Assembly (NCBI GenBank): GCA_903871775.1
Contig: CAIQIA010000014.1
Location: 1-64,000, forward strand
DNA from: an uncultured cyanobacterium
GTDB lineage: Bacteria; Cyanobacteriota; Cyanobacteriia; PCC-6307; Cyanobiaceae
Direction: 5' to 3'
DNA: 64,000 nt
In this document: piece by piece, positions 23,390 through 38,159 of the stretch
How the letters are laid out: every line of letters starts with the position of its first letter
How positions within the stretch are numbered: position 1 is the first letter of the stretch
Translations under genes and position numbers: made by a program
The notes under the pieces: generated by a model
The model's input: only the letters and a program-made list of their open reading frames with translations
Databases searched by the model: none
Told to the model about the DNA's origin: nothing

Positions 23390-24205
23390 GTGAGCTCCAC
23401 TCCACGCACCATTCTCATCTGCTCGGGCAAGGGCGGTGTGGGCAAGACGACCCTCACCGCCAATCTGGGCATCGCCCTCGCCGGCGAGGGCGTCCGCACG
23501 GCGGTGCTGGATGCCGATTTCGGCCTGCGCAACCTCGATCTGCTGCTGGGTCTCGAGAACCGCATCGTCTACACGGCCCAGGAGGTGCTCTCGGGCACCT
23601 GCCGGCTGGAGCAGGCCATGGTGAAGCACAAGCAGGTGCCCAACCTGTCGCTGCTGCCGGCGGGCAATCCGCGCATGCTCGACTGGCTCAAGCCCGACGA
23701 CATGAAGCGCATCGTCGAGCTGATCAAGCCCCAGGTCGATGTGATTCTCATCGATGCGCCGGCCGGCATTGAAGACGGCTTCCGCAACGCCGCCGCCGCC
23801 GCCGAGGAGGCGATCGTGATCACCACCCCCGAGGTGTCGGCGGTGCGGGATGCCGACCGGGTGGTGGGGCTGCTGCAGAGCCAGGGCATCAGCCCCGTGG
23901 CCCTGGTGCTCAACCGGGTGCGGCCGAAGATGATGGCCAACCAGGAGATGCTCGGCGTCAGCGATGTCACCGACATCCTCGCCCTGCCGCTGCTGGGCCT
24001 CGTGCTCGAGGACGAGCAGGTGATCGTGAGCACCAACAAGGGCGAACCGCTCACCCTGAACGGCACCCGTTCGCCGGCGGCCCAGGCTTACCGGAACATC
24101 GCCAAGCGCCTGCGGGGGGAGGAGATTCCGGTGCCTGACCCCAGCGAGCTCAACCGGGGCTTCCGGGCCCGGGTCCGCGACCTCATGAACAAGCGCATCT
24201 TCTGA
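23390..24205 (+). CDS. minD: Septum site-determining ATPase MinD
   Basis: 271 residues with a GTG start. The deviant Walker A ICSGKGGVGKTTLTANLG is at about 10-27 and the switch/Walker B VILIDAPAGIEDGF near 119. The amphipathic C-terminal membrane-targeting helix is FRARVRDLMNKRIF. MinD-ATP binds membrane and recruits MinC or MinE to position the division site. minE follows after three bases. No minC precedes it directly in this genome. Confidence 0.97.
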   Translation: MSSTPRTILICSGKGGVGKTTLTANLGIALAGEGVRTAVLDADFGLRNLDLLLGLENRIVYTAQEVLSGTCRLEQAMVKHKQVPNLSLLPAGNPRMLDWLKPDDMKRIVELIKPQVDVILIDAPAGIEDGFRNAAAAAEEAIVITTPEVSAVRDADRVVGLLQSQGISPVALVLNRVRPKMMANQEMLGVSDVTDILALPLLGLVLEDEQVIVSTNKGEPLTLNGTRSPAAQAYRNIAKRLRGEEIPVPDPSELNRGFRARVRDLMNKRIF

Positions 24206-24208
24206 GCC

Positions 24209-24505
24209 ATGACCATGCGTGACCTCTTCGACCGCCTGGTCGGCCGCAGCCCCGCCAGCGCCTCCACGGCCAAGGCCCGCCTGCAGCTCGTGCTCGCCCA
24301 CGACCGGGCCGACCTCAACCCCGAACTGCTGGAGCAGATGCGCCGCGAGATCCTGGCGGTGGTGCAGAAATACGTCGAGCTCGACCTGGAAGGCGGTGAT
24401 GTGAGCCTCGAGACCGAGGAGCGCACCACGGCCCTGGTGGCCAACCTGCCGATCCGGCGGGTGCGGGATTCCGCGCTGCAGTTGCTGGCCAGGGGGGAAT
24501 CCTGA
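24209..24505 (+). CDS. minE: Cell division topological specificity factor MinE
   Basis: 98 residues. The N-terminal MinD-activating segment is [20 protein letters not shown] (about 19-38). It is followed by [20 protein letters not shown], which matches the dimerisation region of MinE. MinE stimulates MinD ATPase and drives its pole-to-pole movement. It is separated from minD by three bases. Confidence 0.95.
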
Positions 24506-24792: not shown

Positions 24793-24864
24793 GCCGGCTT
24801 AGCTCAGTGGTAGAGCAGCGCTTTTGTAAAGCGAAGGCCATCGGTTCAAATCCGTTAGCCGGCT
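24793..24864 (+). tRNA. tRNA-Thr (TGT)
   Basis: A 72-base cloverleaf. The acceptor gccggct pairs with agccggc (24857-24863). The anticodon loop tttgtaa has anticodon TGT at 24825-24827, the T loop is ttcaaat and the discriminator is T24864. The last ten bases overlap the stop codon region of ktrA on the opposite strand, so the ktrA stop TAA lies in the tRNA's T arm/acceptor junction. Confidence 0.95.
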
Positions 24865-25583
24865 TTCTGGTAGGCACCTCGGGCCCCTGGGATCTGGCCC
24901 AGGGCATCGTTCGTGCCCATCAGCACGAGAAGATCCCCCTGCTGCAGCATCAGGTCGGCAGGGGGGTTGACGGTGAGGCCCTGGTCGGGACCAGCCGCCA
25001 GAACGGTCACCCCCCAACGGGGCCTGAGATCCAGCTCGGCGAGGGTGCGGCCGACAAAGGCCTGCGGCACCCGACGCTCCTCGATCGCATGGCGCCCGTC
25101 GAGTCGCAGGCGTTCCAGCAGGCCCGGCCGCGCCAGCTCGCTGCCCAGGCGCAGGCCCTCCTGCCGGGAGGGGAAGACCACCAGGTCGGCCCCCAGCCGC
25201 TCCAGCATCGTCTGATGCAGCTGACTGCTGGCCCGGGCGATCACCCGCCTCACGCGGCTGCCGCTGGCCACCCGGGCGATGAGGGTGGCGGTGACGCTCA
25301 CCTCGATGGGGCTGCCGATGGCCACCACCACCGTGGGCATGTCGAGCACCCCGGCCTCCCGCAGGGATTCCTCATCGGTGCAATCGGCCACCCGGGCCTC
25401 GAGGGCGGGATCCCGCAGCAGCAGCTGAGCGATGGCCCTCTCACTGGCGTCGACGGCCAGCAGCGGCACGCCGGCCTCGATCAGCTCTTCACACACGGCC
25501 GCCCCGAACCGGCCCAGCCCGATGACGGCATATCCGGCATCGGCGTCATCACGCCACCAGGAGGACTGCGGGGTCGTGGTCAC
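24855..25583 (-). CDS. ktrA: Potassium uptake regulatory subunit KtrA (TrkA-N/TrkA-C)
   Basis: 242 residues, GTG start. The Rossmann RCK domain begins with YAVIGLGRFGAAVCEEL (GxGxxG about 20-25) and includes VDASERA and the region VVVAIGSPIEVSVTATLIAR. The TrkA-C domain is about 160-235 (VGRTLAELDLRPRWGVTVLA ... GDLLVLMG). It forms the cytoplasmic nucleotide-gated ring on KtrB. Its start overlaps the ktrB stop as GTGA, so translation is coupled. The C terminus is encoded partly inside the tRNA-Thr gene on the other strand. Confidence 0.93.
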   Translation of the reverse strand: MTTTPQSSWWRDDADAGYAVIGLGRFGAAVCEELIEAGVPLLAVDASERAIAQLLLRDPALEARVADCTDEESLREAGVLDMPTVVVAIGSPIEVSVTATLIARVASGSRVRRVIARASSQLHQTMLERLGADLVVFPSRQEGLRLGSELARPGLLERLRLDGRHAIEERRVPQAFVGRTLAELDLRPRWGVTVLAAGPDQGLTVNPPADLMLQQGDLLVLMGTNDALGQIPGARGAYQKAG

Positions 25584-26959
25584 AGGATCAGATCATCGAC
25601 GGGGTAACGCACCCGGGCCAGCGGCCGGGTGCCGTAGACGGCCGACAGGATCAGCAGGATGCCCAGGCGTCCCACGAACATACCCACCATCAGCACCAGC
25701 TGGCCCCAGCGGGACAACCGGGCCGTGACGCCCACATCAAGCCCGACCGTGGCAAACGCCGAGACGCAGGTGAACAGCTTCTCGAGGAACGTGAAGCGTG
25801 GCAGGGATGGTTCACCGCCGCTGGTGGGCCCAAGGCCCAGCAGCAGGGCCATCAGCACCACGACGGCCAGGGAGGCCAGCACCACCCCCACCGCCCGCAG
25901 CAGCACCTCGGGTTCCAGCCGCCGCCGGCGGATGACCACATCCTCACGCCCCTGGAGGGTGGAGCGGGTGGCCGCCACCAGCACGGCGATGGTGGTGGTC
26001 TTGACGCCACCGCCGGTGCCGCCGGGGCTGGCGCCGATGAACATCAGCACCACCAGCACCAGCAGGGCCGCATCCGAAAACGTGTGCAGCGACAGGGGCA
26101 CGGTGTTGAAGCCCGCCGTGCGTGCACTGACGGCATGGAAAAGGCCCACCTGCAGCTGCTGCAGGGGGCCGAGGGAGGACAGCAGTCCATCGGGGGCGAA
26201 ACGCTCCGTGGCCAGCAGGGCCAGGGTGCCGAGGCCGAGCAGGGCCAGGGTGCTGCGCAGCACGAGCCAGGTGTGCAGGGAGAGGCCCCGGCGACGGCAG
26301 GACCGCAGCCCCCAGAGCTCACGGCAGACCCGCCAGCCGATGCCACCCATCACGATCAGCGCAGCGATGACGGCATTGACGACCGGATCATCGCGATACG
26401 CCTCAAGATTGGAGCTGAAGAGACCGAAACCGGCGTTGTTGTAGGCGCTGATGGCGTGAAAGACGGCGACCCACAGCCGACGACCGGGGTCGGTGATGTC
26501 GCGGAACCCGAACAGAAAGAGCACCAGGGCGCCGGCGCCGATGACCACGGCGGCCATGCGCAGCACCAACCGCAGGGTGCCACCCACCGCACCGACGCCG
26601 TAGACATCGAGGGAGCGGCCCCGATCGAGCCGCTGACGCAGGGCGCCGCCACCGAGCACGACCCCCTGCAGCACCGAGGTGATGGCCATCAGGCCAAGAC
26701 CGCCGACGAGGATCAGCAGCGCCAGCAGGCCCTGGCCGACCGGTGTGAGTTCGTTGCCGACGTCGATGATCGACAGGCCCGTGACGGTGATCGCCGAGGT
26801 GACGGTGAACAGGGCCTCCCAGAGCCCGACACTGTCGCTCGAGCAGACGGGCAGGGCCAGCAGCACGGTGCCCACCGCGATCACGAGACCTCCGCTGAGG
26901 ACGGTGAACTGGGGCACGTCCAGACGCCGCCACCATCGCCGCCCTGCCTGCGTCACCAC
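25580..26959 (-). CDS. ktrB: Potassium (sodium-coupled) transporter KtrB
   Basis: 459 residues with four repeated membrane-pore-membrane units. The selectivity-filter segments are TVTSAITVTGLS (about 53), AISAYNNAGFGL (about 168), AVSARTAGFNTV (about 275) and CVSAFATVGLDVG (about 397), each with the expected filter Gly. Ktr systems take up K+ during osmotic shock. Cyanobacteria often also need KtrE, which is not adjacent. The start is GTG 26959 (a second GTG follows immediately). It is divergent from the peptide gene across 171 bases. Confidence 0.95.
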   Translation of the reverse strand: MVTQAGRRWWRRLDVPQFTVLSGGLVIAVGTVLLALPVCSSDSVGLWEALFTVTSAITVTGLSIIDVGNELTPVGQGLLALLILVGGLGLMAITSVLQGVVLGGGALRQRLDRGRSLDVYGVGAVGGTLRLVLRMAAVVIGAGALVLFLFGFRDITDPGRRLWVAVFHAISAYNNAGFGLFSSNLEAYRDDPVVNAVIAALIVMGGIGWRVCRELWGLRSCRRRGLSLHTWLVLRSTLALLGLGTLALLATERFAPDGLLSSLGPLQQLQVGLFHAVSARTAGFNTVPLSLHTFSDAALLVLVVLMFIGASPGGTGGGVKTTTIAVLVAATRSTLQGREDVVIRRRRLEPEVLLRAVGVVLASLAVVVLMALLLGLGPTSGGEPSLPRFTFLEKLFTCVSAFATVGLDVGVTARLSRWGQLVLMVGMFVGRLGILLILSAVYGTRPLARVRYPVDDLIL

Positions 26960-27130: not shown

Positions 27131-27322
27131 ATGACCCTCATCACCCTCAACGAGTGCGCTGCCGAGACCGTGCGCGGCGGCTTCTTCGACCTGGCCGCCA
27201 TCCGCCAGGTGGCCCGTCAGGACAACGCCGGCGCCAACGTCTCGGTGGGCCTGCTCAACCCCGCCTTCCAGGGGATCATCCAGGGCAACAGCGCCGTCCA
27301 GCTGGCCTTCGCCAACGCCTGA
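27131..27322 (+). CDS. Double-glycine-leader secreted peptide precursor
   Basis: 63 residues from ATG 27131. The first 17 residues form a double-glycine leader (LNECAAETVRGG, cleavage expected after Gly17). The mature part is 46 residues, Cys-free and rich in Asn, Gln, Ala and Val, ending QGNSAVQLAFANA. The leader type, small size and the adjacent C39-peptidase exporter mark it as the exporter's substrate. It could be a class II microcin/bacteriocin or an EbfG-like biofilm matrix peptide. Its leader resembles that at the start of the exporter frame (LDASQCDVITGG). A strong hairpin follows the stop. Confidence 0.8.
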   Translation: MTLITLNECAAETVRGGFFDLAAIRQVARQDNAGANVSVGLLNPAFQGIIQGNSAVQLAFANA

Positions 27323-27340
27323 TCAGCCTCTGATCAACCC

Positions 27341-27370
27341 CGGCCGGCGGCGGCGATAGCTGCCGCCGGC
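27341..27370 (+). promoter_or_regulatory. Intercistronic hairpin between peptide and exporter genes
   Basis: A perfect 10-base-pair stem ggccggcggc/gccgccggcc encloses a ten-base loop, 18 bases after the peptide stop and 26 bases before the next ATG. There is no T tract, so it is more likely an mRNA-stabilising or attenuating structure. Such structures allow many peptide transcripts per exporter transcript. Two tgatca palindromes (27319 and 27330) precede it. Confidence 0.6.
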
Positions 27371-27396
27371 CACCTAACACCTACTCCTCAAGAGCC

Positions 27397-27606
27397 ATGT
27401 TGCGAACCCTCGACGCGTCGCAGTGCGACGTCATCACCGGCGGCTGGGCCATGCCCCCCGTGACGGTCAACGCCCCGATCAACGTGGGTGCGACCTCCGT
27501 GGTGCAGCTGGGCAACCAGCTGAACTTCGGGCTCAACCTCGCCCTGCTCCCCGGTTCCCAGAGCATCAGCCAGGGCAACGGTTATCTGGCAGGCGTGTCT
27601 GATCCG
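27397..27606 (+). other. Peptide-like segment at the start of the exporter frame
   Basis: Codons 1-70 have the make-up of a second substrate peptide: a 16-residue leader with double glycine, then an Asn/Gln/Val/Leu-rich, Cys-free stretch containing SISQGNGYLAG that recalls IIQGNSAVQLA of the first peptide. No stop separates it from the peptidase. In another frame a TGA occurs at 27600-27602, just before ATG 27607, so a frameshift (biological or sequencing) would restore two separate genes. Confidence 0.6.
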
Positions 27607-29832
27607 ATGCTCTCCCGGAGTGACCCGACACGATCCCGTCCCGCCAGGGGGCGGGGGCTGGCCTGGTCCCTCCGGGCCGGGCGCTGGAACTGCGTGCGCC
27701 AGTGGAACATCGAAGACTGCGGTGCCGCCTGCCTGGCCAGCGTCTGCCGCCAGCACGGCCTGCGCCGTGACCTGGCCGACGTCCGCGCACTGGTGGGCAC
27801 CACCGGCACCGGCACCACCCTGCTCGGTCTGCAGCGGGGGGCCGAACGGCTGGGCTTCCACACCCGTGCCGCCCAGGCCGGACCGGATCTGCTCGACCAC
27901 CTCGACGAGGTGCCCCTGCCCCTGATCCTCCATTGGAAGGGCTGCCACTGGGTGGTGCTGCATGGCCGTCGGGGGGGCCGCTGGCTGGTAGCTGATCCGG
28001 CCCATGGCCTGCAGTGGCATGACCGCGACAGCCTGCTGCGCCACTGGAACGACGGGGTGCTGCTGCTGCTCGAACCCGACCCGGTGCGGCTGGAGGCCGC
28101 ACGGCAGCAGCGCCCCGCCGCCGGCGGCGGCTGGGGCTGGCTGGCCACCCTGGTGGCCCCCTTCCGGCCCCTGCTCTGGCGGGCCTTCGCCCTCAACGGC
28201 GTGATCGGCCTGATGGCCCTGGCCCTGCCGGTGCTGATGCAGGTGCTTACCGATGACGTGCTGGTGCGCGGGGATGGACGCCTGCTGGCGGGCTTCTGTC
28301 TCGGAATCGCCCTGCTGTTTCTGATCCGCGCGTTGCTCAACCTGATGCAGGGGGTGCTGGTGGGCCACTTCGGCCAGAAGCTGCGGCTGCAGATGGTGCT
28401 GCACTACGGCCAGCGATTGCTGCGCCTGCCCCTGAGCCATTTCGAGAGCCGCCGCAGCGGCGAGGCGGTGAGTCGCCTGGCCGACATCGATCAGCTGCGG
28501 GACCTGATGAGCCAGGTGATGCTCGCCCTGCCAAGCCAGTGCTGCGTGGCGCTGATCTCGCTGATGGTGATGGCGCTGTACAGCCCACCCCTGACCCTGG
28601 CGGCCCTCGCCGGCCAGGGCCTGGTGCTGCTGGCCTATGCCGCCGTGCTGCCGGCCCTGCAGCGCCGCACCCGCGCCCTCACGGTGCAGTCGGCCGAGAA
28701 CCAGGGCTTTCTGGTGGAGGTCTTCCGTGGCTCGACCCTGCTGCGCACCACGGCAGCGCACCAGCAGGCGTGGCAGGAGTTCCAGCGCAACTTCGGCCGG
28801 CTGGCCCATCTCGCCTGGGATGCGCTGCTGCTGGAGCTGCGGGCCGGGACCCTCACCACCCTGCTGGCCAGCCTGACGACGATCGGCGTGCTCTGGTACG
28901 GCAGCACCTTCGTGCTCTCGGGCCGGATGACCATCGGCCAGCTGCTGGCCTTCCACGGCATGAGCGCCAACGTGCTCGTGTTCCTGGGGGCCCTCGGCGG
29001 CGCCACCGAGAACCTGCTGCGCTCGCGGATCGTCATCAGCCGCCTCAGCGATGTGCTGCAGGAGGAGCCGGAGGATGCCGACGGCCGCCATCGCCACACG
29101 GTGGCCATCGCGCCCGCTGAACCGATCCGGTGCGACGGGGTGAGCTTCCACCATCCAGGCCGGCGGCGGCTGCTGCACGACCTGACCCTCGAGCTTCCCG
29201 GTGGCGAGGTCACGGCCCTGGTGGGTCCCTCGGGCTGCGGCAAGAGCACCCTCGTGCGGCTGCTCGCCGGGCTCTATCCGCTGGAGGCGGGCAGCATCCG
29301 CTTCGGCGCCTTCGACGGGGCCGACATCGCCATCGACAGCCTGCGCCGTCAGGTGGTGCTGCTGCCCCAGGAGGCGGTCTTTCTCAGCCGCAGCATCTTC
29401 GACAACTTCGTCTTCGCCCACCCGGGGGTGACCTTCGAGGAGGTGGTGCACCTCTGCCGGCTGACCCTGGCCGACGACTTCATCCACAGCCTGCCCAACG
29501 GCTACCACACGGTGCTGGGCGAGTTCGGCCTCAACCTCTCGGGTGGGCAGCGGCAACGGCTGGCCCTGGCCCGGGCCCTGGTGGGGGAACCGCCGGTGCT
29601 GCTGCTCGACGAATCGACCTCGGCCCTCGATCCAGACATGGAGCAGCGGGTGATGGAGCGGCTGCTGCGCCATCGCCTGGGTCGCACCACGGTGCTGGTG
29701 AGCCATCGCCCCTCGGTGATCCGCCGCGCCGACTGGATCGTGCACCTCGAGAACGGCCAGGTGCGCCACCAGAACCGCCCGGAGGCCCTGGGCGACTGCC
29801 TCGACCTGCATCCCTACCTGCTCACCCCATGA
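27397..29832 (+). CDS. C39-peptidase ABC exporter with N-terminal fused double-glycine peptide
   Basis: 811 residues as one open frame. Residues 1-16 are a leader ending ITGG, and 17-70 look like a mature peptide (NAPINVGATSVVQLGNQLN). From about 95 comes a C39 peptidase with Gln102, Cys108 (DCGAAC), His184 (KGCHWVVL) and Asp200 (VADPAHG), all catalytic positions intact. A membrane domain (about 265-560) and an ATPase domain follow: Walker A GPSGCGKST about 607, LSGGQRQR about 714, LLLLDESTSALD about 735. It cleaves double-glycine leaders while exporting peptides. The true exporter start could be the internal Met71 (27607) if the first part is a separate peptide. Overlaps the hlyD gene by ATGA. 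Confidence 0.88.
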   Translation: MLRTLDASQCDVITGGWAMPPVTVNAPINVGATSVVQLGNQLNFGLNLALLPGSQSISQGNGYLAGVSDPMLSRSDPTRSRPARGRGLAWSLRAGRWNCVRQWNIEDCGAACLASVCRQHGLRRDLADVRALVGTTGTGTTLLGLQRGAERLGFHTRAAQAGPDLLDHLDEVPLPLILHWKGCHWVVLHGRRGGRWLVADPAHGLQWHDRDSLLRHWNDGVLLLLEPDPVRLEAARQQRPAAGGGWGWLATLVAPFRPLLWRAFALNGVIGLMALALPVLMQVLTDDVLVRGDGRLLAGFCLGIALLFLIRALLNLMQGVLVGHFGQKLRLQMVLHYGQRLLRLPLSHFESRRSGEAVSRLADIDQLRDLMSQVMLALPSQCCVALISLMVMALYSPPLTLAALAGQGLVLLAYAAVLPALQRRTRALTVQSAENQGFLVEVFRGSTLLRTTAAHQQAWQEFQRNFGRLAHLAWDALLLELRAGTLTTLLASLTTIGVLWYGSTFVLSGRMTIGQLLAFHGMSANVLVFLGALGGATENLLRSRIVISRLSDVLQEEPEDADGRHRHTVAIAPAEPIRCDGVSFHHPGRRRLLHDLTLELPGGEVTALVGPSGCGKSTLVRLLAGLYPLEAGSIRFGAFDGADIAIDSLRRQVVLLPQEAVFLSRSIFDNFVFAHPGVTFEEVVHLCRLTLADDFIHSLPNGYHTVLGEFGLNLSGGQRQRLALARALVGEPPVLLLDESTSALDPDMEQRVMERLLRHRLGRTTVLVSHRPSVIRRADWIVHLENGQVRHQNRPEALGDCLDLHPYLLTP

Positions 29833-30983
29833 CCCTGTCGCCCCTCGACCTCGATGACGTGCTGCCACCGCCCGACCGCTGGTCGCGGGCCCTCGGGAGG
29901 CGGCTGCTGCTGGCCCTGGTCGGCACCGGCTTCGGCCTGGCGGTGTGGCCCCTGGCCGAGACCGTGCGGGCCGGCGGGGTGGTGCGCCCCCTGGGGGAGA
30001 ACAACCTGCTGCAGAGCCGGCTGGGGGGGGTGCTGACCGCGGTGAGCATCCGCCCCGACCAACGGGTGCAGCGGGGGCAGGTGCTGGGGCGTCTCGACAC
30101 CGCCCCCCTCGACCGGGAGCGGCAGCTGCTGCTGCAGGAGATGGGCAGCCTCAGCCGCCAGCGGCGCCAGTCGCTGCAGGAACAGCAGGCGCTGCAGGAC
30201 CAGGAACGGGCGGCGCGGCGGATGCTGCTGGCCCGGCTGGAATCGGTGCGCCGTGACGGCGACAAGGCAGCCGTCACCCAGGACTTCCAGCGGCGCGAGC
30301 TGGAGCGGTTCCGGTCTCTGCAGAGCGAGGGTGCCGTGGCCCGCAGCCTGGTGGAGGAACAGGAGGCGCGGCTGCGGATCGGCGGCAGTGACCTGGCCAA
30401 GGCGCGCCAGAGCCTCGACGAACAGCAGGCCCAGGGGGCCGAAGACCTGGCGGCCCTGCGCCGCAGTGCCCTGCAGGCCCGGGTGGCGGCGGAGGAACTG
30501 GAGAAGAGCCTCGATGAACGCCGCCATCGCCTGAAGATGCTGGACCGGGACCGGCAGGACAGCGTGCTGCGGGCCCCCGCCGGCGGCACCGTGCTCGCCA
30601 CCGTGCTGCGGCACCGGGGGCAGGTGATCCGCCCCGGGGAGGTGGTGGCCACCATCGCGCCCGCAGGGGCCCGCCACGAGATCGTGCTGAAGGTGACGAG
30701 CCGCCAGCGCCCCCGCCTGCGGCCCGGCCAGCCGGCGATGGTCACGATCAACGGCTGTTCGCGCTCCGAGTTCGGCGTGCTGCGGGCCCGGGTCGAAACT
30801 GTGGCCGACGACGTGGTGAGCCGCGGCCTCTACGCGGTGCGGCTGCGGCCGGAACGGCAGGGCCTCACGAGCAGCCGCGGCAGCTGTCCCCTGCGACCCG
30901 GCCTCGAGGTCGACGCCGACGTCACGACACGGATGACGACGGTGCTGCAGTTCCTGGCCGACCGCTTCGAACGGCCGCTCTGA
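29829..30983 (+). CDS. HlyD-family periplasmic adaptor (membrane fusion protein)
   Basis: 384 residues from ATG 29829, overlapping the exporter stop by ATGA. A single membrane anchor is at about 28-46 (LLLALVGTGFGLAVWPLAE). A lipoyl-like half-motif (NNLLQSRLGGVLTAVSIRPD) follows, then a long coiled coil rich in Glu/Arg/Gln (about 90-240). The second lipoyl half (DSVLRAPAGGTVLATVL, about 240) and a beta-barrel region come last. It links the inner-membrane exporter to an outer-membrane channel; no TolC gene is adjacent, so a shared TolC is assumed. Confidence 0.92.
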   Translation: MTLSPLDLDDVLPPPDRWSRALGRRLLLALVGTGFGLAVWPLAETVRAGGVVRPLGENNLLQSRLGGVLTAVSIRPDQRVQRGQVLGRLDTAPLDRERQLLLQEMGSLSRQRRQSLQEQQALQDQERAARRMLLARLESVRRDGDKAAVTQDFQRRELERFRSLQSEGAVARSLVEEQEARLRIGGSDLAKARQSLDEQQAQGAEDLAALRRSALQARVAAEELEKSLDERRHRLKMLDRDRQDSVLRAPAGGTVLATVLRHRGQVIRPGEVVATIAPAGARHEIVLKVTSRQRPRLRPGQPAMVTINGCSRSEFGVLRARVETVADDVVSRGLYAVRLRPERQGLTSSRGSCPLRPGLEVDADVTTRMTTVLQFLADRFERPL

Positions 30984-31082: not shown

Positions 31083-31268
31083 ATGGATCCCAACCCCTGG
31101 GAGATCGGCAGCAACCCGATCGACCTGCTCGACCTGCTGACCGGCGCCGACAGCTCCCAGGCCCTGTGGTTCGTGGCGGGCTACATCCGTGGCGCCCAGG
31201 ATGCCTGCCGCTTCGCCGTCGATGACGGCGCCGACGGGGACGGGGCCACAGGTCCGGGGGGGCCATGA
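31083..31268 (+). CDS. Small acidic protein coupled to phosphoribosyltransferase
   Basis: 61 residues, preceded by a good ribosome-binding site (gaggagg at 31066-31072). The sequence MDPNPWEIGSNPIDLLDLLT is followed by ALWFVAGYIRGAQDACRFAV and an Asp/Gly-rich tail. It is not a family I recognise. The stop overlaps the next start as ATGA, so expression is coupled to the phosphoribosyltransferase. Its helix around WFVAGYIRGAQDA could contact a partner; function unknown. Confidence 0.6.
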   Translation: MDPNPWEIGSNPIDLLDLLTGADSSQALWFVAGYIRGAQDACRFAVDDGADGDGATGPGGP

Positions 31269-31984
31269 CCGACGACGTCCCGGCCTGGCCGGACCGCAGC
31301 AGCGCCGGGGAAGACCTGGCCCGTCGCCTGCCGATGTTCTGGCGCCCCGGAGAGGCCATCACCGTCGTCGGCATTCCCCGCGGCGGCCTGGTGGTGGCGG
31401 CGCCGGTGGCCTGGCGACGGGGCTGCCCGCTGGTGAGCTGGTCGACGCGGCGGCTGGTGCTGCCCGGCAGCGGCGGGCTGGGGCTGGGGGCCGTGGCCCC
31501 GGGGGGGATCGTCGTGATCGACCCCGACCAGGTGCGGCTGCAGCATGTGCCCCTGGGCACCCTGCTGGATCTGATCCACCATCAGCAGCTCGTCGTTGAG
31601 CGCCATCAGCGGCTGTTCGCCGAACCACGGCCGGCCGCGATCGCCGGTCACCACCTGATCGTGATCGACGACTACCTGAGTTCGGGGTTGACGATGGAAG
31701 CCACCCTGCGGTCGTTGCGGCAGCTCTGGCCCCGGTCGATCACCCTGGCCGTGCCGGTGGGCGCCCAGGGGGTGATCCGCTGCCTGCGCCCGGAGGTGGA
31801 CAACATCCTGGTGCTGATCAGCACCGAACAGCCCGAGACCGGGCTGGGCTGGGGCCGGCGGCTGGGGCCCGTGGACCTGCGACAGGTGCTGCAGCTGCTG
31901 CAGCCCCCCCTGGGCGGGAGTGCCGGGGATGCGCCGCAGTCCGGCAGCAGAGACGTTTCGCCGGGATCGTCAACTTCAGGATGA
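31265..31984 (+). CDS. Phosphoribosyltransferase-fold protein, copy 1
   Basis: 239 residues. GIPRGGLVVAAPVAWRRG near 36 is the PRTase core. The PRPP-binding loop is IVIDDYLSSGLTMEATLRSL near 135 (DD and SSGLT retained). The region between the two, which carries hydrophobic side-chain contacts to the base in other members, is unlike that of copy 2 and contains RLQHVPLGTLLDLIHHQQL. Family resemblance is to COG1926, stress-associated PRTases of unknown substrate. The C-terminal tail is disordered (Gly/Ser/Asp). It is followed 22 bases later by a sigma factor gene. Confidence 0.78.
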   Translation: MTDDVPAWPDRSSAGEDLARRLPMFWRPGEAITVVGIPRGGLVVAAPVAWRRGCPLVSWSTRRLVLPGSGGLGLGAVAPGGIVVIDPDQVRLQHVPLGTLLDLIHHQQLVVERHQRLFAEPRPAAIAGHHLIVIDDYLSSGLTMEATLRSLRQLWPRSITLAVPVGAQGVIRCLRPEVDNILVLISTEQPETGLGWGRRLGPVDLRQVLQLLQPPLGGSAGDAPQSGSRDVSPGSSTSG

Positions 31985-31997
31985 GCACACCTCATCC
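31979..31997 (+). promoter_or_regulatory. Hairpin between phosphoribosyltransferase and sigma factor
   Basis: A perfect 7-base-pair inverted repeat, ggatgag/ctcatcc with loop cacac, overlaps the phosphoribosyltransferase stop codon (31982-31984) and ends nine bases before the sigma factor ATG. It is placed to affect ribosome access to the sigma gene or re-initiation after the upstream stop. Confidence 0.5.
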
Positions 31998-32006
31998 CAG
32001 AGCTCC

Positions 32007-32830
<824 letters not shown>

Positions 32831-32834
<4 letters not shown>

Positions 32835-32873
32835 GGCCAGCCCGGCCGGGGGGAGCGGCTGCCGGGGCCTCAG
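32831..32873. terminator. Convergent hairpin at sigma factor / CopG gene ends
   Basis: An inverted repeat ctgaggcc (32831-32838) / ggcctcag (32866-32873) spans the gap and includes the stop codons of both convergent genes, with extra GC pairing inside. It lacks a T tract on either side, so any termination would be weak or rely on Rho. It may also limit RNA degradation. Confidence 0.4.
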
Positions 32874-33178
32874 AACAGGGGTTTGCCGGCGTGGCCGTCC
32901 GGCACGAAGCCGGCGGCAGCCACCGGGCGCCCCTTGAGGTAGTTGACGCCGGCCAGCTTGTGGCCGACGCCATCGGGGGTCCCGCGGGCGCCCGCTTCGG
33001 CCAGGCCGAGGCCGTTCTCCAGCAGGTAGGCGGCCAGGTTCGACACCGAGCGTCCCTCGAGGTCGGAGCGGCTCACGAGGCGTTCGTAGGTGGACTGGGA
33101 AATGGTGATCGAGATGCGCTGGGGCTTGCGGCGGAGCACGGCCATCCGATCGGCGGCCGGACGAGGGGCTTCGGTCAT
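32870..33178 (-). CDS. Ribbon-helix-helix (CopG/Arc-like) small protein
   Basis: 102 residues from ATG 33178; a longer GTG start at 33226 gives a Pro/Ala-rich extension and seems less likely. The motif KPQRISITISQSTYERLVSR then GRSVSNLAAYLLENGL (about 18-53) is a ribbon-helix-helix DNA-binding fold. The C-terminal half (GHKLAGVNYLKGRPVAAAGF) is unassigned. No toxin gene is adjacent, so an antitoxin reading is unsupported; a small transcription regulator is more likely. Confidence 0.7.
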   Translation of the reverse strand: MTEAPRPAADRMAVLRRKPQRISITISQSTYERLVSRSDLEGRSVSNLAAYLLENGLGLAEAGARGTPDGVGHKLAGVNYLKGRPVAAAGFVPDGHAGKPLF

Positions 33179-33291
33179 GGGGGGGGTCGGAGAAGGGACG
33201 GCTGCGCGGGGCGGCGCAGCCACCACCCATATGGCGCGAGGCTCCTCATCCCGTCGGCGATCTCAGCACGACTGCAGCCGGGGCCCGGCAC

Positions 33292-33975
33292 TCATGCCTC
33301 CGCCTGCGGCACCGTCGCACCACGGCCACGGGCCAGCAGATCGATGACGGTGGCATCGTCCACGGGGCGGAAATCGTCGTACCACTCCCCCACAGAGCGC
33401 AGCCAGCGGACCCGGCGCAGCACCAGCAGATCGTCGACGAGGGGGCGCAGGCGATCGATCGTGGTGCCGTCGGCCACCGGCACAGCCAGCCGCAGGGAGG
33501 CCGGCGACAGCTGCATCAGAGACCGCAGGATCGCCTCGATGGTGAGGCCGGTCGCCAGGCCGTCATCGACCACGAGCAGGTGCCGCCGACGGAGGGCGCC
33601 AGCCGGCGGATCGCCGTAGCGGCTGCGTCGACGCTCCAGCTCGGCCGTCTCGCGGGAGATGGCCCGCTCCAGGGCCGCCCCCTCCATGCCCAGCCGCCGC
33701 GCCTCGTCGCCATGGATCAGCTGAACCCCTCCTGGCGCGATGGCGCCGATGGCGTACTCGGGGCTCACCTCGGCGGCAAGCTTGCGGGCGCACCAGCTGC
33801 ACAGCGGCAGCCCCAGGCGGTGGGCGACGGCGGCCGCCACGACGATGCCGCCGCGGGGAACGCCGATGACCAGGCCCCCGGCCAGCACCTCCGGCGGCAG
33901 GGCGGGGAGCAGGTGTTCGGCCAGCAGGCCGCCGGCATGGCAGCGGTTGCGCCAGCGGTGGGGGGCATCGGCCAT
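33292..33975 (-). CDS. Phosphoribosyltransferase-fold protein, copy 2
   Basis: 227 residues from ATG 33975. GVPRGGIVVAAAVAHRLG is near 40. The family motif CARKLAAEVSPEYAIGAIAP includes the usual Lys and Glu. The PRPP loop VVDDGLATGLTIEAILRSL is near 143, and a C-terminal SVGEWYDDFRPV (typical of COG1926) is present. It keeps all family signatures and so is the canonical copy, whereas copy 1 has diverged. In other bacteria such genes sit with Hsp20 and dormancy genes. It is divergent from hsp20 across 131 bases. Confidence 0.85.
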   Translation of the reverse strand: MADAPHRWRNRCHAGGLLAEHLLPALPPEVLAGGLVIGVPRGGIVVAAAVAHRLGLPLCSWCARKLAAEVSPEYAIGAIAPGGVQLIHGDEARRLGMEGAALERAISRETAELERRRSRYGDPPAGALRRRHLLVVDDGLATGLTIEAILRSLMQLSPASLRLAVPVADGTTIDRLRPLVDDLLVLRRVRWLRSVGEWYDDFRPVDDATVIDLLARGRGATVPQAEA

Positions 33976-34106
33976 GGACAGGGGGAACGCTGCCCTTCCT
34001 CTACCGGCGGGCGGCCCCTCCGACGGCCGCCGCAGCCGTGCCGCAGCGGTGCATACCGGGCGCCCCCGCCGCAGACGGGGCCCCGACACTGAATCTGTCG
34101 CTGTCT

Positions 34107-34595
34107 ATGACCGCCATGACTCTGATGAAGTGGGATGCCCTGCGGGATGTCGAGAACCTGCTCGAGCGCACCAGCCGCTCCCTGGGCTGGATGCCGGGAC
34201 GGTCCTCCCTGGGCTGGATGCCGCTGCTGGCCCCCGAGATGGCGGCCAACGGCGAATGGTGCCCCTGCGTCGACATCGGCGAGAACGACCGGGCGTTCGT
34301 GCTGAAGGTGGAGCTCCCCGGGGTGAAGCGCGAAGACGTGGCCATCAACATCCAGAACGACGTGCTCACCCTCGAGGGGAGCCGGCGCCGGGAGGAGGAG
34401 AGCCAGGGCCAGCGCTTCCACCGGCTGGAGCGCTCCTGCGGCCGCTTCCTGCGCAGCTTCAGCCTGCCGGACAACGTCGACGCCAACGCCATCGCCGCCC
34501 ATTTTCACGACGGGCTGCTGGAGGTCGAACTGCCGAAGACCGCCGCCACCCAGGCCCGCAGCATCGAGGTGACGATCAACGGGGCGACCAGCTGA
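34107..34595 (+). CDS. Small heat-shock protein Hsp20 (alpha-crystallin family)
   Basis: 162 residues from ATG 34107 (MTAMTLMKW). ATG 34116 is a close alternative. The N-terminal arm is repetitive (SLGWMPG ... SLGWMPLL). The alpha-crystallin domain spans about 50-145, with VDIGENDRAFVLKVELPGV, INIQNDVLTLEGSR and a C-terminal GLLEVELPK. It is an ATP-independent holdase that prevents aggregation under heat or oxidative stress. No CIRCE element was seen upstream. The gene ends within a small palindrome shared with the convergent Wza gene. Confidence 0.92.
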   Translation: MTAMTLMKWDALRDVENLLERTSRSLGWMPGRSSLGWMPLLAPEMAANGEWCPCVDIGENDRAFVLKVELPGVKREDVAINIQNDVLTLEGSRRREEESQGQRFHRLERSCGRFLRSFSLPDNVDANAIAAHFHDGLLEVELPKTAATQARSIEVTINGATS

Positions 34596-34606
34596 GGCAG
34601 CCTCAG
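34592..34606. terminator. Convergent palindrome at hsp20 / Wza gene ends
   Basis: ctgagg/cctcag with a three-base loop covers both stop codons (34593-34595 on plus, 34603-34605 on minus). It is short and lacks a T tract, so it is at best a weak bidirectional terminator. Confidence 0.35.
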
Positions 34607-35712
34607 GGGCCCGAGACGGTGCGGATGACGTTGTAGATGGCCGTGCCGTTGACCAGGGCCGACAGCGGTGCGGTGACCGCCGTGAAGCCGTCGACCACCT
34701 GCGCATAGAGCGAGCGGTTGACGATGATCGTGTCGCCGTCCCGCAGGGGCGGGTTGGCCGTGCTCGACACCCCCTGGCCGTAGTTGACGGCGAAGGCCTG
34801 ACGGGTGGCGGTGCCATTGCGGTTGATCCGCACCAGGTCGACGCTGCCCGTGCGGGCACGGAAGTTGACCGGCCCGCCGGCCGCCAGGATCGCCTGCACC
34901 AGCGGGGTGTTGGCCCGCAGCTGCTTCTCGCCGGGGGCCTTGACCTCGCCGACGATGTTGACGCGGATCGAGGACGGCGAGAAGTTGGCGACGGCCAGCT
35001 CCATGATCTCGGCGTCGGTCGGCGCCTCGGCACGACCCACTTCGATGGTGTCACCGTCGAAGAGGTAGGGGTTCTGTTGCTGGTCCCCCCGCTGCAGCAG
35101 TGCCGCCAGATCAAGGCTGGTGGTCTTGAGGCGCCCGGGGGCACCGATCAGCCGACGGGACAGACGCACGTTGCGCAGGTCGGCCAGCTGGGTGAGGCCT
35201 CCGGCCTTCTGGATGGCGGTGATCAGGGTGGGCACGCCCGAGATCTGCCCGCCGCCGTTGGCGGTGCCTGAGCTCTCGGTGGGGGTGAGGGTGTACAGGC
35301 CTGGATTGCTGACCTCACCGATGACACTGATGAGCTGCGGCCGCGGCTGCTGCAGCCGCAGGGTGAGGTCGGGGCGCACCACCTGGCGGCCGTAGAGGCG
35401 GGTGAGCAGCCCCCGGGCCTGGTCGATGGTGGTGCCGCTCACGGGCACCGACCCCAGCAGAGGAAAGACCGCGGTGCCGTCGTTCAACACCTGGGTGGCA
35501 CCGCCCAGCTCCTTGAGCTTGGGATCGAGCAGATCCACCTGCAGCAGATCGCCGGGGCCGAGGATGTAGGCATCGGGCTGGGTGATCCTCACCTGCGGAT
35601 CCTGCTGGGCCAGGGCCTCGGGACCGGCGCCCAGGGCGATGGCGGCAACCGTCAGAAGGGCCGCGACCGTGGGCCTGCGGGACAGACGGAAGGGACGATC
35701 GTCGATCGGCAC
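34603..35712 (-). CDS. Wza-like polysaccharide export protein (Poly_export, SLBB)
   Basis: 369 residues. GTG start, signal peptide to about residue 36 (ending ALAQQ). Then the Poly_export domain with ITQPDAYILGPGDLLQVDLL at about 43-62 and ARGLLTRLYGRQVVRPDLTL. Two SLBB-like segments follow (VIGEVSNPGLYTLTP and VNIVGEVKAPGEKQLRANTP). The family forms the outer-membrane exit channel for exopolysaccharide. No lipobox Cys is visible, unlike E. coli Wza. It is divergent from the Wzc-like gene, the usual partner. Confidence 0.92.
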   Translation of the reverse strand: MPIDDRPFRLSRRPTVAALLTVAAIALGAGPEALAQQDPQVRITQPDAYILGPGDLLQVDLLDPKLKELGGATQVLNDGTAVFPLLGSVPVSGTTIDQARGLLTRLYGRQVVRPDLTLRLQQPRPQLISVIGEVSNPGLYTLTPTESSGTANGGGQISGVPTLITAIQKAGGLTQLADLRNVRLSRRLIGAPGRLKTTSLDLAALLQRGDQQQNPYLFDGDTIEVGRAEAPTDAEIMELAVANFSPSSIRVNIVGEVKAPGEKQLRANTPLVQAILAAGGPVNFRARTGSVDLVRINRNGTATRQAFAVNYGQGVSSTANPPLRDGDTIIVNRSLYAQVVDGFTAVTAPLSALVNGTAIYNVIRTVSGP

Positions 35713-35840
35713 GGCGTCGATGGTCCTGACCTGGAGGTGGCGCCACGCTACCGGACATTCCTTTTGCGGCGGCTATAGTCGCGGCGGTCTCGGCCCCGTC
35801 CCGTCCCGCTGCCACGGCAGTCCAGGTCACCACAACCTTC
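35713..35840. promoter_or_regulatory. Divergent promoter region, Wza / Wzc genes
   Basis: 128 bases between the two export genes. A tatagt at 35774-35779 on the plus strand is a plausible -10 element for the Wzc gene, but no good -35 lies at 16-18 bases. Shared control of export channel and kinase is expected from the arrangement. Confidence 0.35.
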
Positions 35841-38159
35841 ATGGTTCAAGCCAGCAGCTCCCCCAACGGCACCGCGACCTCCGGCACGGGTGGAACCGCA
35901 GGGCAGGCCTACGACAAGCCGGCGTCGTCGCAGCCGCAGATCCTGCGGGCGATCCGACGCCGCCAGAGCCTGTTCCTGCTGGTGTCTCTGGCCTCCTTCG
36001 CCGTGATGGGGGTCAACCTGGCGCGGGAGCGCATCTTCTCGCCGAGCTACACCGGCGGTTTCCAGATCCTGCTGAACGATCCCATCGGCGACGGCAGCAA
36101 GGGCCGTGGACCGGCGGGAAGCACCGAACTGGCCGAGCTGGCCAACCTCACCACCAACGCCCGCATCCCCGACCTGGTCCAGGTGCTTCGCAGCCCGTCG
36201 ATGCTGGAGCCACTGGCCGCCAAGATGCGGGTCAGCGCCGGCAAGATCGACAGCAACCTGCGCATCGCCCCGCCGTCGGAAGATGTGCAGGACGTGCTGC
36301 TGATCAGCCTGAACTGGTCCGACCCCTCCCAGGGGGTGACGATCCTGCGGGCCCTGGCCGACGAATACCTCGATTTCTCGAAGCGCCAGCGTCTCAACCG
36401 TCTTCAGGACGGCATCTCGTTCCTCGACACCCAGGCACCCATCCTCGAGAAGAAGGTCAACGACATCCAGGGCGAACTGGAAACCTTCCGGCGCACCCAC
36501 AACCTGATCACCCCCGATGCCCGCGGCAGTGCGCTGCAGAGCCAGTACGACGTGCTCAAGGAATCGCTCGGCAGCCTGCGGCAGCAGCAGGCCCAGCTGG
36601 CCAGCCAGGCCCGGTCGATCCAGACCGGCACCCTTTCACCGGCCTGGCTGCCCAGCACCCCCCTCCCCGGCGCCCCGGCGACAGGTGGCACCACGGCCGG
36701 TGGAGCAGCCCCGGCGCCCACCGGACTGCTGACCCCGCAGCAGCAGCTGGATCAGCTGGACCAGAAGATCGCCGAGGCTTCAGCGAGTTACCGCCCCGAC
36801 AGCCCGGTGCTCCGCAGCCTGCTGGCGGAACGGGATCAGCTGCGGCCGGTGGTGCAGCAGCAGGCGATGGCCGGCGTGGTGAACCAGCTGAACAGCAACC
36901 TGGCCCAGCAGGCCGAAATCATGCGCCAGCTGCAGGTGCTGCGCAACAGCTTCCAGCGCAGCCCGGCGCTGATCAAGACCTACGAGGGCATGCAGCAGAG
37001 GCTCGAGGTGGCCAAGCTCAACTACAGCGGCTACATCCAGGCCCGGGAGAATTTCCGCCTGGAGGCATCCCAGCAGTCGGTGCCCTGGAAGCTGATCGCC
37101 TCACCCCGGTTCAATGAGGTCCCGACAAAGCCCAATGTCGGCCGCGGACTGCTGCAGTCGGCAGCCCTGGCCCTGATCATCGGTGCCGGCGCCGCCCTGC
37201 TGCGGGACCGCCTCGACAACATGATCCACACCCCCCAGGAGATCGAGGAACAGCTGAACCTGCCGGTGCTGGGCCTGATTCCCTACCTGCCCCTGCAGCC
37301 GGGCCTGACGGTGACCCGCTCGATCGAGCAGATGGATGCCGGCGACCGCTTCGCCGTGCGCGAATCCCTGCGCAGCCTGTTCACCACCTTCCGGCTGCTG
37401 CGCTCTGACCGCGCCATCCGCCTGGTGGCGGTGACGTCATCGGGGCAGGGCGAAGGCAAGTCGACCGCCACGGCCATCTTCGCCACCACCCTGGCCAACC
37501 TCGGCCTGAAGGTGCTGATCATCGACGCCGACATGCGGCTGCCGCGACAGCATCGCTACCTGGGCCTCGAAAACAACGACGGATTCTCGAATCTGCTCAC
37601 CGACTCCAGCCTCGACATCCACAGCCTGATCCGTCCGGTCACCGACACCCTGCACCTGATCACCGCGGGCCCGAAACCCCCTGACCCGGCCAAGCTGCTC
37701 AGCTCCCGCCGTTGTTCCGAGCTGCTGAACGAGATGCGCAGCGGTCTCGAGGAGTACGAGATCATCCTGTTCGACACCCCCCCGGCCCTGCTGCTGGCCG
37801 ATCCGGTGCTGCTCGGCGAGAAGGTCGATGGCCTGCTGTATCTGGTGGGCCTGGGGCGGATCGACCGCACCGTGGCCCCGCAGGCCCTGCGGCGGGTGCA
37901 GGCGAGCGGAGTCGATGTGCTGGGTGCCATCGCCAACCAGATCGAGTTCCCCACCAGCCTCAACGATTACGGCTACGGCTATGGCTACGGGTATGGCTAT
38001 GGCTACGGCGGTTATTCCGACCGGTACCGCAACAACTACAAGACGGCCGCAGTGCTGGAAGACCGCGCCGGCAGCCTCAAACCCCAGGCCAAGGAACCGG
38101 CGATCAACACCGCCGCCCAGCGGGTCAGCCAGTTTCTTCGCGAGCGTAAGGAGCGTTGA
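35841..38159 (+). CDS. Wzc-like polysaccharide co-polymerase with tyrosine autokinase
   Basis: 772 residues. A Wzz domain is bounded by membrane helices at about 43-60 and 435-455, with a coiled coil and a Pro/Ala-rich insert between. The C-terminal BY-kinase has Walker A SSGQGEGKST about 532-541, Walker A' VLIIDADMR about 557 and Walker B ILFDTPPALLL about 640. A Tyr tail NDYGYGYGYGYGYGYGGY (about 708-725) plus further Tyr holds the autophosphorylation sites. It governs polymer length and export with Wza. The tail's 3' end overlaps a phosphatase gene, which may reverse the phosphorylation. Confidence 0.93.
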   Translation: MVQASSSPNGTATSGTGGTAGQAYDKPASSQPQILRAIRRRQSLFLLVSLASFAVMGVNLARERIFSPSYTGGFQILLNDPIGDGSKGRGPAGSTELAELANLTTNARIPDLVQVLRSPSMLEPLAAKMRVSAGKIDSNLRIAPPSEDVQDVLLISLNWSDPSQGVTILRALADEYLDFSKRQRLNRLQDGISFLDTQAPILEKKVNDIQGELETFRRTHNLITPDARGSALQSQYDVLKESLGSLRQQQAQLASQARSIQTGTLSPAWLPSTPLPGAPATGGTTAGGAAPAPTGLLTPQQQLDQLDQKIAEASASYRPDSPVLRSLLAERDQLRPVVQQQAMAGVVNQLNSNLAQQAEIMRQLQVLRNSFQRSPALIKTYEGMQQRLEVAKLNYSGYIQARENFRLEASQQSVPWKLIASPRFNEVPTKPNVGRGLLQSAALALIIGAGAALLRDRLDNMIHTPQEIEEQLNLPVLGLIPYLPLQPGLTVTRSIEQMDAGDRFAVRESLRSLFTTFRLLRSDRAIRLVAVTSSGQGEGKSTATAIFATTLANLGLKVLIIDADMRLPRQHRYLGLENNDGFSNLLTDSSLDIHSLIRPVTDTLHLITAGPKPPDPAKLLSSRRCSELLNEMRSGLEEYEIILFDTPPALLLADPVLLGEKVDGLLYLVGLGRIDRTVAPQALRRVQASGVDVLGAIANQIEFPTSLNDYGYGYGYGYGYGYGGYSDRYRNNYKTAAVLEDRAGSLKPQAKEPAINTAAQRVSQFLRERKER
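37968..38015 (+). repeat. Tandem Tyr-Gly codon repeat in Wzc tail
   Basis: Seven consecutive Tyr-Gly codon pairs built on a ggctac/ggctat hexamer, followed by Gly-Tyr. Codon alternation between tac and tat and one ggg suggests expansion followed by point change. Such hexamer runs can change length by slippage without frameshift, altering the number of phosphorylatable Tyr. Confidence 0.85.

Follow-up and report, generated by a model that had tools for sequence, protein, structure and literature searches.

A putative operon for two double-glycine peptides and their PteB-type exporter in an uncultured member of the Cyanobiaceae

Which peptides are sent out of the cell by a small export locus of an uncultured cyanobacterium, and what could they do outside? 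The locus lies in a stretch of 64,000 nt from a member of the Cyanobiaceae (assembly GCA_903871775.1, contig CAIQIA010000014.1), hereafter called the window, to whose full length all coordinates refer; all genes of the locus are on the (+) strand. The initial annotation, made from the letters of the window, described one precursor peptide with a double-glycine leader, an ATP-binding cassette (ABC) exporter with a C39 peptidase domain and an HlyD-type adaptor. Here, we establish the anatomy of the locus, its conservation, the co-occurrence of peptides and exporter and the catalytic residues of the latter, and suggest that the locus is most likely a small operon making and exporting two short sticky peptides. 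The system itself is of a known kind, that of the exporter PteB and the peptides EbfG1-4 in Synechococcus elongatus PCC 7942, while the conserved family of cargo peptides, linked to a single exporter clade, appears to be new. This family, defined here and termed twin Q-x-N, comprises precursors with a double-glycine leader, a Cys-free core and two Q-x-N motifs, located beside a PteB-type exporter. No description of the family or of its tie to the clade was found, the supplementary precursor list of PMC3140520 being outside the comparison.

As listed in Table 1, the 63-residue peptide and the adaptor of the initial annotation both stand, but a second double-glycine precursor, peptide 2, had been missed. 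It is hidden in the exporter frame, which is open over 811 residues (27397-29832) in the assembly. The C39 exporter was correctly recognized in this frame, but its first ~70 residues are the second precursor (MLRTLDASQCDVITGG followed by WAMPP...) and not exporter. In a genome of the same genus (G001), peptide 2 is a separate gene of 70 codons that ends in TTCTGA, and the ATG of the exporter comes 4 bases further. The window has GTG-TCTGA where the same-genus genome has GTGTTCTGA, that is, one T is missing between 27597 and 27598, and the junction reads GTGTCTGA with the deletion and GTGTTCTGA without it. Consequently, the stop codon of peptide 2 is lost and its frame continues into the exporter. 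Since the difference is one base, a recent mutation or an error of assembly suffices to explain the fusion in the window. Translation of the exporter proper probably starts at the ATG at 27607, which is intact with or without the deletion and would give a protein of ~741 residues.

Then, could the fusion be real, with peptide 2 as an N-terminal extension whose leader the exporter removes by itself, or which is retained as a tether? The long frame is indeed open in the assembly, with Gly-Gly retained in the leader and an intact C39 domain. However, the genes are separate in the same-genus genome and in the other cargo-bearing operons of the Cyanobiaceae, only a single base makes the difference, and the ATG at 27607 is retained. 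In addition, in a model of the first 238 residues, the fused frame is predicted to be disordered and undocked up to residue 88, and the confident C39 fold begins at about residue 91. A real fusion is therefore very improbable, and a conserved peptide-exporter design was rejected as the general state.

Table 1. Features of the peptide export locus in the window.
Feature	Coordinates	Strand	Remarks
Peptide 1	27131..27322	+	distal-type double-glycine precursor, 63 aa
Peptide 1 leader	27131-27181	+	MTLITLNECAAETVRGG; ends V-R-G-G
Peptide 1 mature part	27182-27319	+	46 aa, Cys-free; motifs Q-D-N and Q-G-N; N-terminus FFDLAAIR
RNA hairpin between the peptide genes	27342..27371	+	perfect 13-bp stem, no T tract
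Peptide 2	27397..27597 (end ~27597)	+	proximal-type double-glycine precursor
Peptide 2 leader	27397-27444	+	MLRTLDASQCDVITGG
Peptide 2 mature part	from 27445	+	WAMPPVTVNAPINVGATSVVQLGNQLNFGLNLALLPGSQSISQGN...; N-terminus WAMPPVTV
1-nt deletion site	27597..27598	+	by comparison with the same-genus genome
PteB-type exporter with N-terminal C39 peptidase	27607..29832	+	probable own ATG at 27607; open frame from 27397
Exporter domains	C39 27688-28080; transmembrane domain 28192-28968; ATPase 29173-29622	+	
HlyD-type periplasmic adaptor	29829..30983	+	overlaps the exporter stop

Both peptides have been conserved within the genus. Between the window and the same-genus genome the indels in the peptides are 3 and 6 bases long (3 in peptide 1), the frame is kept except for the one base described above, and the leader of peptide 1 is identical. 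The ratio of nonsynonymous to synonymous substitution rates (dN/dS) amounts to 0.24 in peptide 1, 0.33 in peptide 2 and 0.14 in the exporter. With a kept reading frame and low dN/dS, both peptides behave as real genes under purifying selection; no further copies were found in the window's genome. The arrangement also recurs beyond the genus. Double-glycine precursors occur upstream of 20 of the 21 exporters in the clade of the window's exporter, and the 21st exporter starts 219 bases from a contig end; each operon has 1-4, mostly 2-4, of these peptides in tandem. For all Cyanobiaceae copies together, the upstream ATG-started double-glycine open reading frames (ORFs) number 56 on the strand of the exporter and 3 on the other strand, and the downstream ones 0 and 4, respectively. 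Such a bias of strand and position (56 vs. 3 vs. 0) indicates that the placement of these ORFs is not due to chance.

The mature parts of these 56 peptides are nearly Cys-free (Cys in 3) and share a common core, in which Q-x-N-x-A occurs in 33 peptides (1.8 expected from shuffles) and Q-G-N in 25 (2.0 expected), and the two Q-x-N motifs are mostly spaced by 18 or 21-22 residues. A cargo profile was built from the mature parts of other genera, with the window's own genus excluded, and 400 shuffles of each peptide served as control. Peptide 1 scored 18.5 bits against 10.7 for its best shuffle, and peptide 2 scored 16.8 against 8.4, which places both, as judged by sequence, in the twin Q-x-N family. 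The initial annotation had suggested looking for co-occurrence of peptide and exporter in other genomes, and a profile of whole precursors, window sequences included, was searched genome-wide over 400 Cyanobiaceae genomes. Cargo was found in 24 of them, and the exporter is present in 21 of these 24 compared with 14 of the 376 others (p ~1e-22), where the p value is only indicative given the relatedness of the genomes, and the test is not wholly independent because the profile was built from exporter neighbours. One of the three cargo genomes without a matched exporter has an exporter fragment adjoining the cargo. It should be noted that some cargo copies, in part paired, are located away from any exporter (L232, L233, L234, L235 and L236), in genomes that have an exporter or an exporter fragment elsewhere.

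The exporter frame matches the Pfam families Peptidase_C39 (4.6e-29), ABC_membrane (1.1e-32) and ABC_tran (2.9e-29). In the numbering of the 811-residue frame, Gln102 and the three residues pointed out in the initial annotation, Cys108, His184 and Asp200, are invariant in 35 related C39 domains, and the predicted C39 fold matches the peptidase domains of PCAT1, ComA and LahT, so that the exporter is predicted to be cleavage-competent. Its identity to PteB of the S. elongatus-type genome G065 is ~50%, compared with ~30% to the remaining C39-like exporters encoded in the window's genome. The exporter of G065 can be taken as PteB since the peptides of this genome contain exactly the fragments reported for EbfG1, EbfG2 and EbfG4 (TTYNPPSYPYPSYPK, SGYSIPTYPK and LLQTANSVAAAIAK; PMC4997328). 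In the phylogenetic tree, the window's exporter groups with 20 others of the Cyanobiaceae in a clade with a support of 1.0, which is sister to the PteB clade and confined to the Cyanobiaceae, and the PteB-type branch leaves out L002 and L003. Wherever a Cyanobiaceae copy has enough flanking sequence, HlyD comes directly 3' of the exporter. Residues, tree, HlyD and double-glycine neighbours all agree in assigning the exporter, by its sequence features, to the PteB-type (group III) C39 family.

How widely is this exporter type distributed? Based on a profile of the first ~385 exporter residues, it is widespread in the class, often with several copies per genome, for example in Nostoc, Scytonema, Calothrix, Xenococcus and Chamaesiphon. 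Within the Cyanobiaceae it is rare, with 35 of 400 genomes, 26 of 251 good genomes and 10 of 59 genera. A second Cyanobiaceae group of PteB type lies outside the cargo clade and has no upstream twin Q-x-N peptides (L203-L205, L210-L218, L222), although a few of its members have unrelated double-glycine ORFs downstream. Two PteB-type exporters are decaying, one with two internal TAG stops and the other split into two frames (the second copy in L214; L121). In other cyanobacteria, the double-glycine cargos upstream of PteB-type exporters look quite different (L092, L098, L100, L108, L110, L124 and L125), and that of L108 matches beta/gamma-crystallin (Pfam PF00030, 3.4e-9).

What, then, could the peptides do? 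We lean towards the view that they are components of the cell surface or matrix, working by analogy like EbfG and PteB with unrelated cargo. Two small precursors would be made, the C39 domain would bind their leaders and cut after Gly-Gly through Cys108, His184 and Asp200, and the ABC exporter, together with HlyD and a TolC-type channel of the outer membrane encoded elsewhere, would carry the mature peptides of ~45 residues out of the cell. There, the Cys-free twin Q-x-N peptides, rich in Asn, Gln and Val, might stay on the surface or associate with themselves as a matrix that holds cells together. Cleavage and export would follow from the families of exporter and precursors, by comparison with their relatives. 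In S. elongatus, secretion of EbfG and biofilm formation depend on PteB with an intact catalytic Cys (PMC4997328), EbfG1-3 form amyloid, and EbfG4 is located both at the cell surface and within the matrix (PMC9981879). A matrix role is suggested because the exporter is of the PteB family, in a clade sister to that of PteB, the order cargo-exporter-HlyD is common to both systems, one cargo family co-occurs with one fully supported exporter clade, the operons have several parallel cargos each and share no further gene, for instance for immunity, and both peptides are under purifying selection. In the peptides of the window, hydrophobic residues alternate with a period of two (z 4.6 over four sequences that are not independent), which leans weakly in the same direction.

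Several observations weigh against a matrix role. In other genera the hydrophobic alternation is weak (z 2.0), EbfG itself lacks it, and AlphaFold predicts a helical structure of low confidence for peptide 1 alone (predicted local distance difference test 53). On the cargo profile, the mature sequences of EbfG1-4 score no better than their own shuffles, and the profile-profile probability is 0.1%, so that homology to EbfG1-4 was rejected at profile level; the comparison drawn in the initial annotation thus holds for the exporter and the operon layout and fails for the peptides. In addition, the window's peptides match no Pfam family, and searches against solved structures gave nothing significant, with beta/gamma-crystallins on top (E ~0.6) when mature-only sequences were used. 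Since no homology to EbfG1-4, Pfam families or solved structures was detected, a matrix role is proposed by analogy. A relationship to curlin or Fap was also rejected, with no Pfam match and nothing significant, and a match to FapC (E 1.9) disappeared with mature-only sequences. A more specific and rather doubtful proposal is that the twin Q-x-N peptides constitute an undescribed amyloid-like family that assembles itself on the surface or in the matrix, convergent with EbfG, with distal and proximal subunits, a ratio set by the hairpin between their genes and a dedicated PteB-type pump.

Alternatively, the two mature peptides could jointly hit competitors as a multi-peptide bacteriocin or microcin, like the two-peptide class II bacteriocins. 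Class II bacteriocins and microcins are typically exported with just this set of a double-glycine leader, a C39 exporter and HlyD, and cyanobacterial clusters of the kind have been named bacteriocin clusters (PMC3140520). The cargo sequences diverge fast between genera, and a search of 36 precursors against NCBIfam, in which peptide 1 matched no family, gave weak matches of two cargos to 'CTB family bacteriocin' (0.0017). However, no small gene beyond cargo, exporter and HlyD is shared by 20 operons, so that the immunity gene expected of class II bacteriocins was not seen among them. Moreover, the 1-4 parallel cargos share a conserved twin Q-x-N core, in contrast to divergent toxins, and the characterized relative of the exporter secretes biofilm proteins and not toxins (PMC4997328). 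A bacteriocin is therefore unlikely at this locus.

The neighbourhood of the operon bears on a third possibility. Of 20 related loci including the window, 8 have an RpoD-like sigma factor within ~5 kb, 7 a ribbon-helix-helix protein, 6 Hsp20 and 5 a phosphoribosyltransferase, the families being named from their sequences. All four are present in the window at 31265-34595, 3' of the operon, and their order varies among several genera; by their sequences, these genes appear to form a recurring stress-type neighbourhood. The frequent presence of the sigma factor and the ribbon-helix-helix protein would suit secreted peptide signals, read by neighbouring cells as a cue of density or stress, and C39 exporters of the ComA type, whose fold was matched, also process signal peptides. 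However, no receptor or histidine kinase is common to the operons, and known peptide pheromones do not resemble mature parts of 45-60 residues that come in 2-4 different forms in each genome, so that a role in signalling seems quite improbable. The initial annotation had taken the neighbouring exopolysaccharide island, where Wza- and Wzc-like genes are located at 34603-38159, as favouring a biofilm peptide. This support has to be given up, since no homologue of Wza or Wzc was found within ~5 kb of any other Cyanobiaceae exporter copy, and the exopolysaccharide neighbourhood was rejected as functional evidence. On the other side, a TrkH/TrkA potassium-uptake pair (24855-26959, minus strand) lies directly upstream of the operon and is conserved in the same-genus genome, and MinD- and MinE-like genes are found at 23390-24505.

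Within the operon, the hairpin between the peptide genes has z -5.7 in the window and a counterpart with z -4.4 in the same-genus genome, and most related operons, as well as that of EbfG, have hairpins with z < -2.5 between their peptide genes. Given that it has no T tract, it may be read as an mRNA stabilizer or attenuator, by which the distal peptide could be made in excess over the exporter. Leader length also varies with position, as the exporter-proximal peptide of related operons tends to have a leader of 15-16 residues and the most distant one of 17-18. No sigma-70-type promoter was found at the operon, which says little in cyanobacteria.

If the peptides are indeed surface or matrix components, some picocyanobacteria, which are usually studied as free-floating cells, would carry a dedicated aggregation or surface programme, the operon being present in ~1/16 of the sampled genomes of the family and the pump type in 1/11. 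The PteB pump would have been kept while its cargo was replaced, and a function like that of EbfG may be common yet invisible to homology searches with the peptides.

Finally, the locus can be compared with known systems. Class II bacteriocin and microcin export of the PCAT1, ComA and CvaB type has the same C39 fold and catalytic residues, whereas the window's operon has no immunity gene and its peptides match no bacteriocin family. Curli and Fap amyloids, as secreted matrix proteins, also have short repeated motifs rich in Asn and Gln, and FapC gave the non-significant match mentioned above, but they show no significant sequence match and differ in secretion route. The window's genome has two genes of the TldD/PmbA family, to which EbfE of S. 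elongatus presumably belongs, and since the family occurs in most control genomes, this is not discriminating. EbfE is the second processing factor of S. elongatus and has been named a homologue of a microcin-processing peptidase (PMC9981879). The cyanobacterial 'group III' bacteriocin clusters (Wang et al., 2011; PMC3140520) share a short-type C39 ABC transporter, HlyD and double-glycine precursors with the window; that survey records group III in S. elongatus PCC 6301/7942 and two such clusters in Cyanobium PCC 7001, and it found little conservation of core peptides, in contrast to the one conserved twin Q-x-N core tied to one exporter clade. As for EbfG/PteB itself, its mature peptides are non-homologous to those of the window by profile comparison, there are four cargos against two, and its exporter belongs to a different clade from that of the window's system, which is known from sequence. 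In the other respects the two are alike, with exporters of the same family at 50% identity, tandem double-glycine cargos directly upstream and HlyD directly downstream, Cys-poor mature peptides and a hairpin between the cargo genes.

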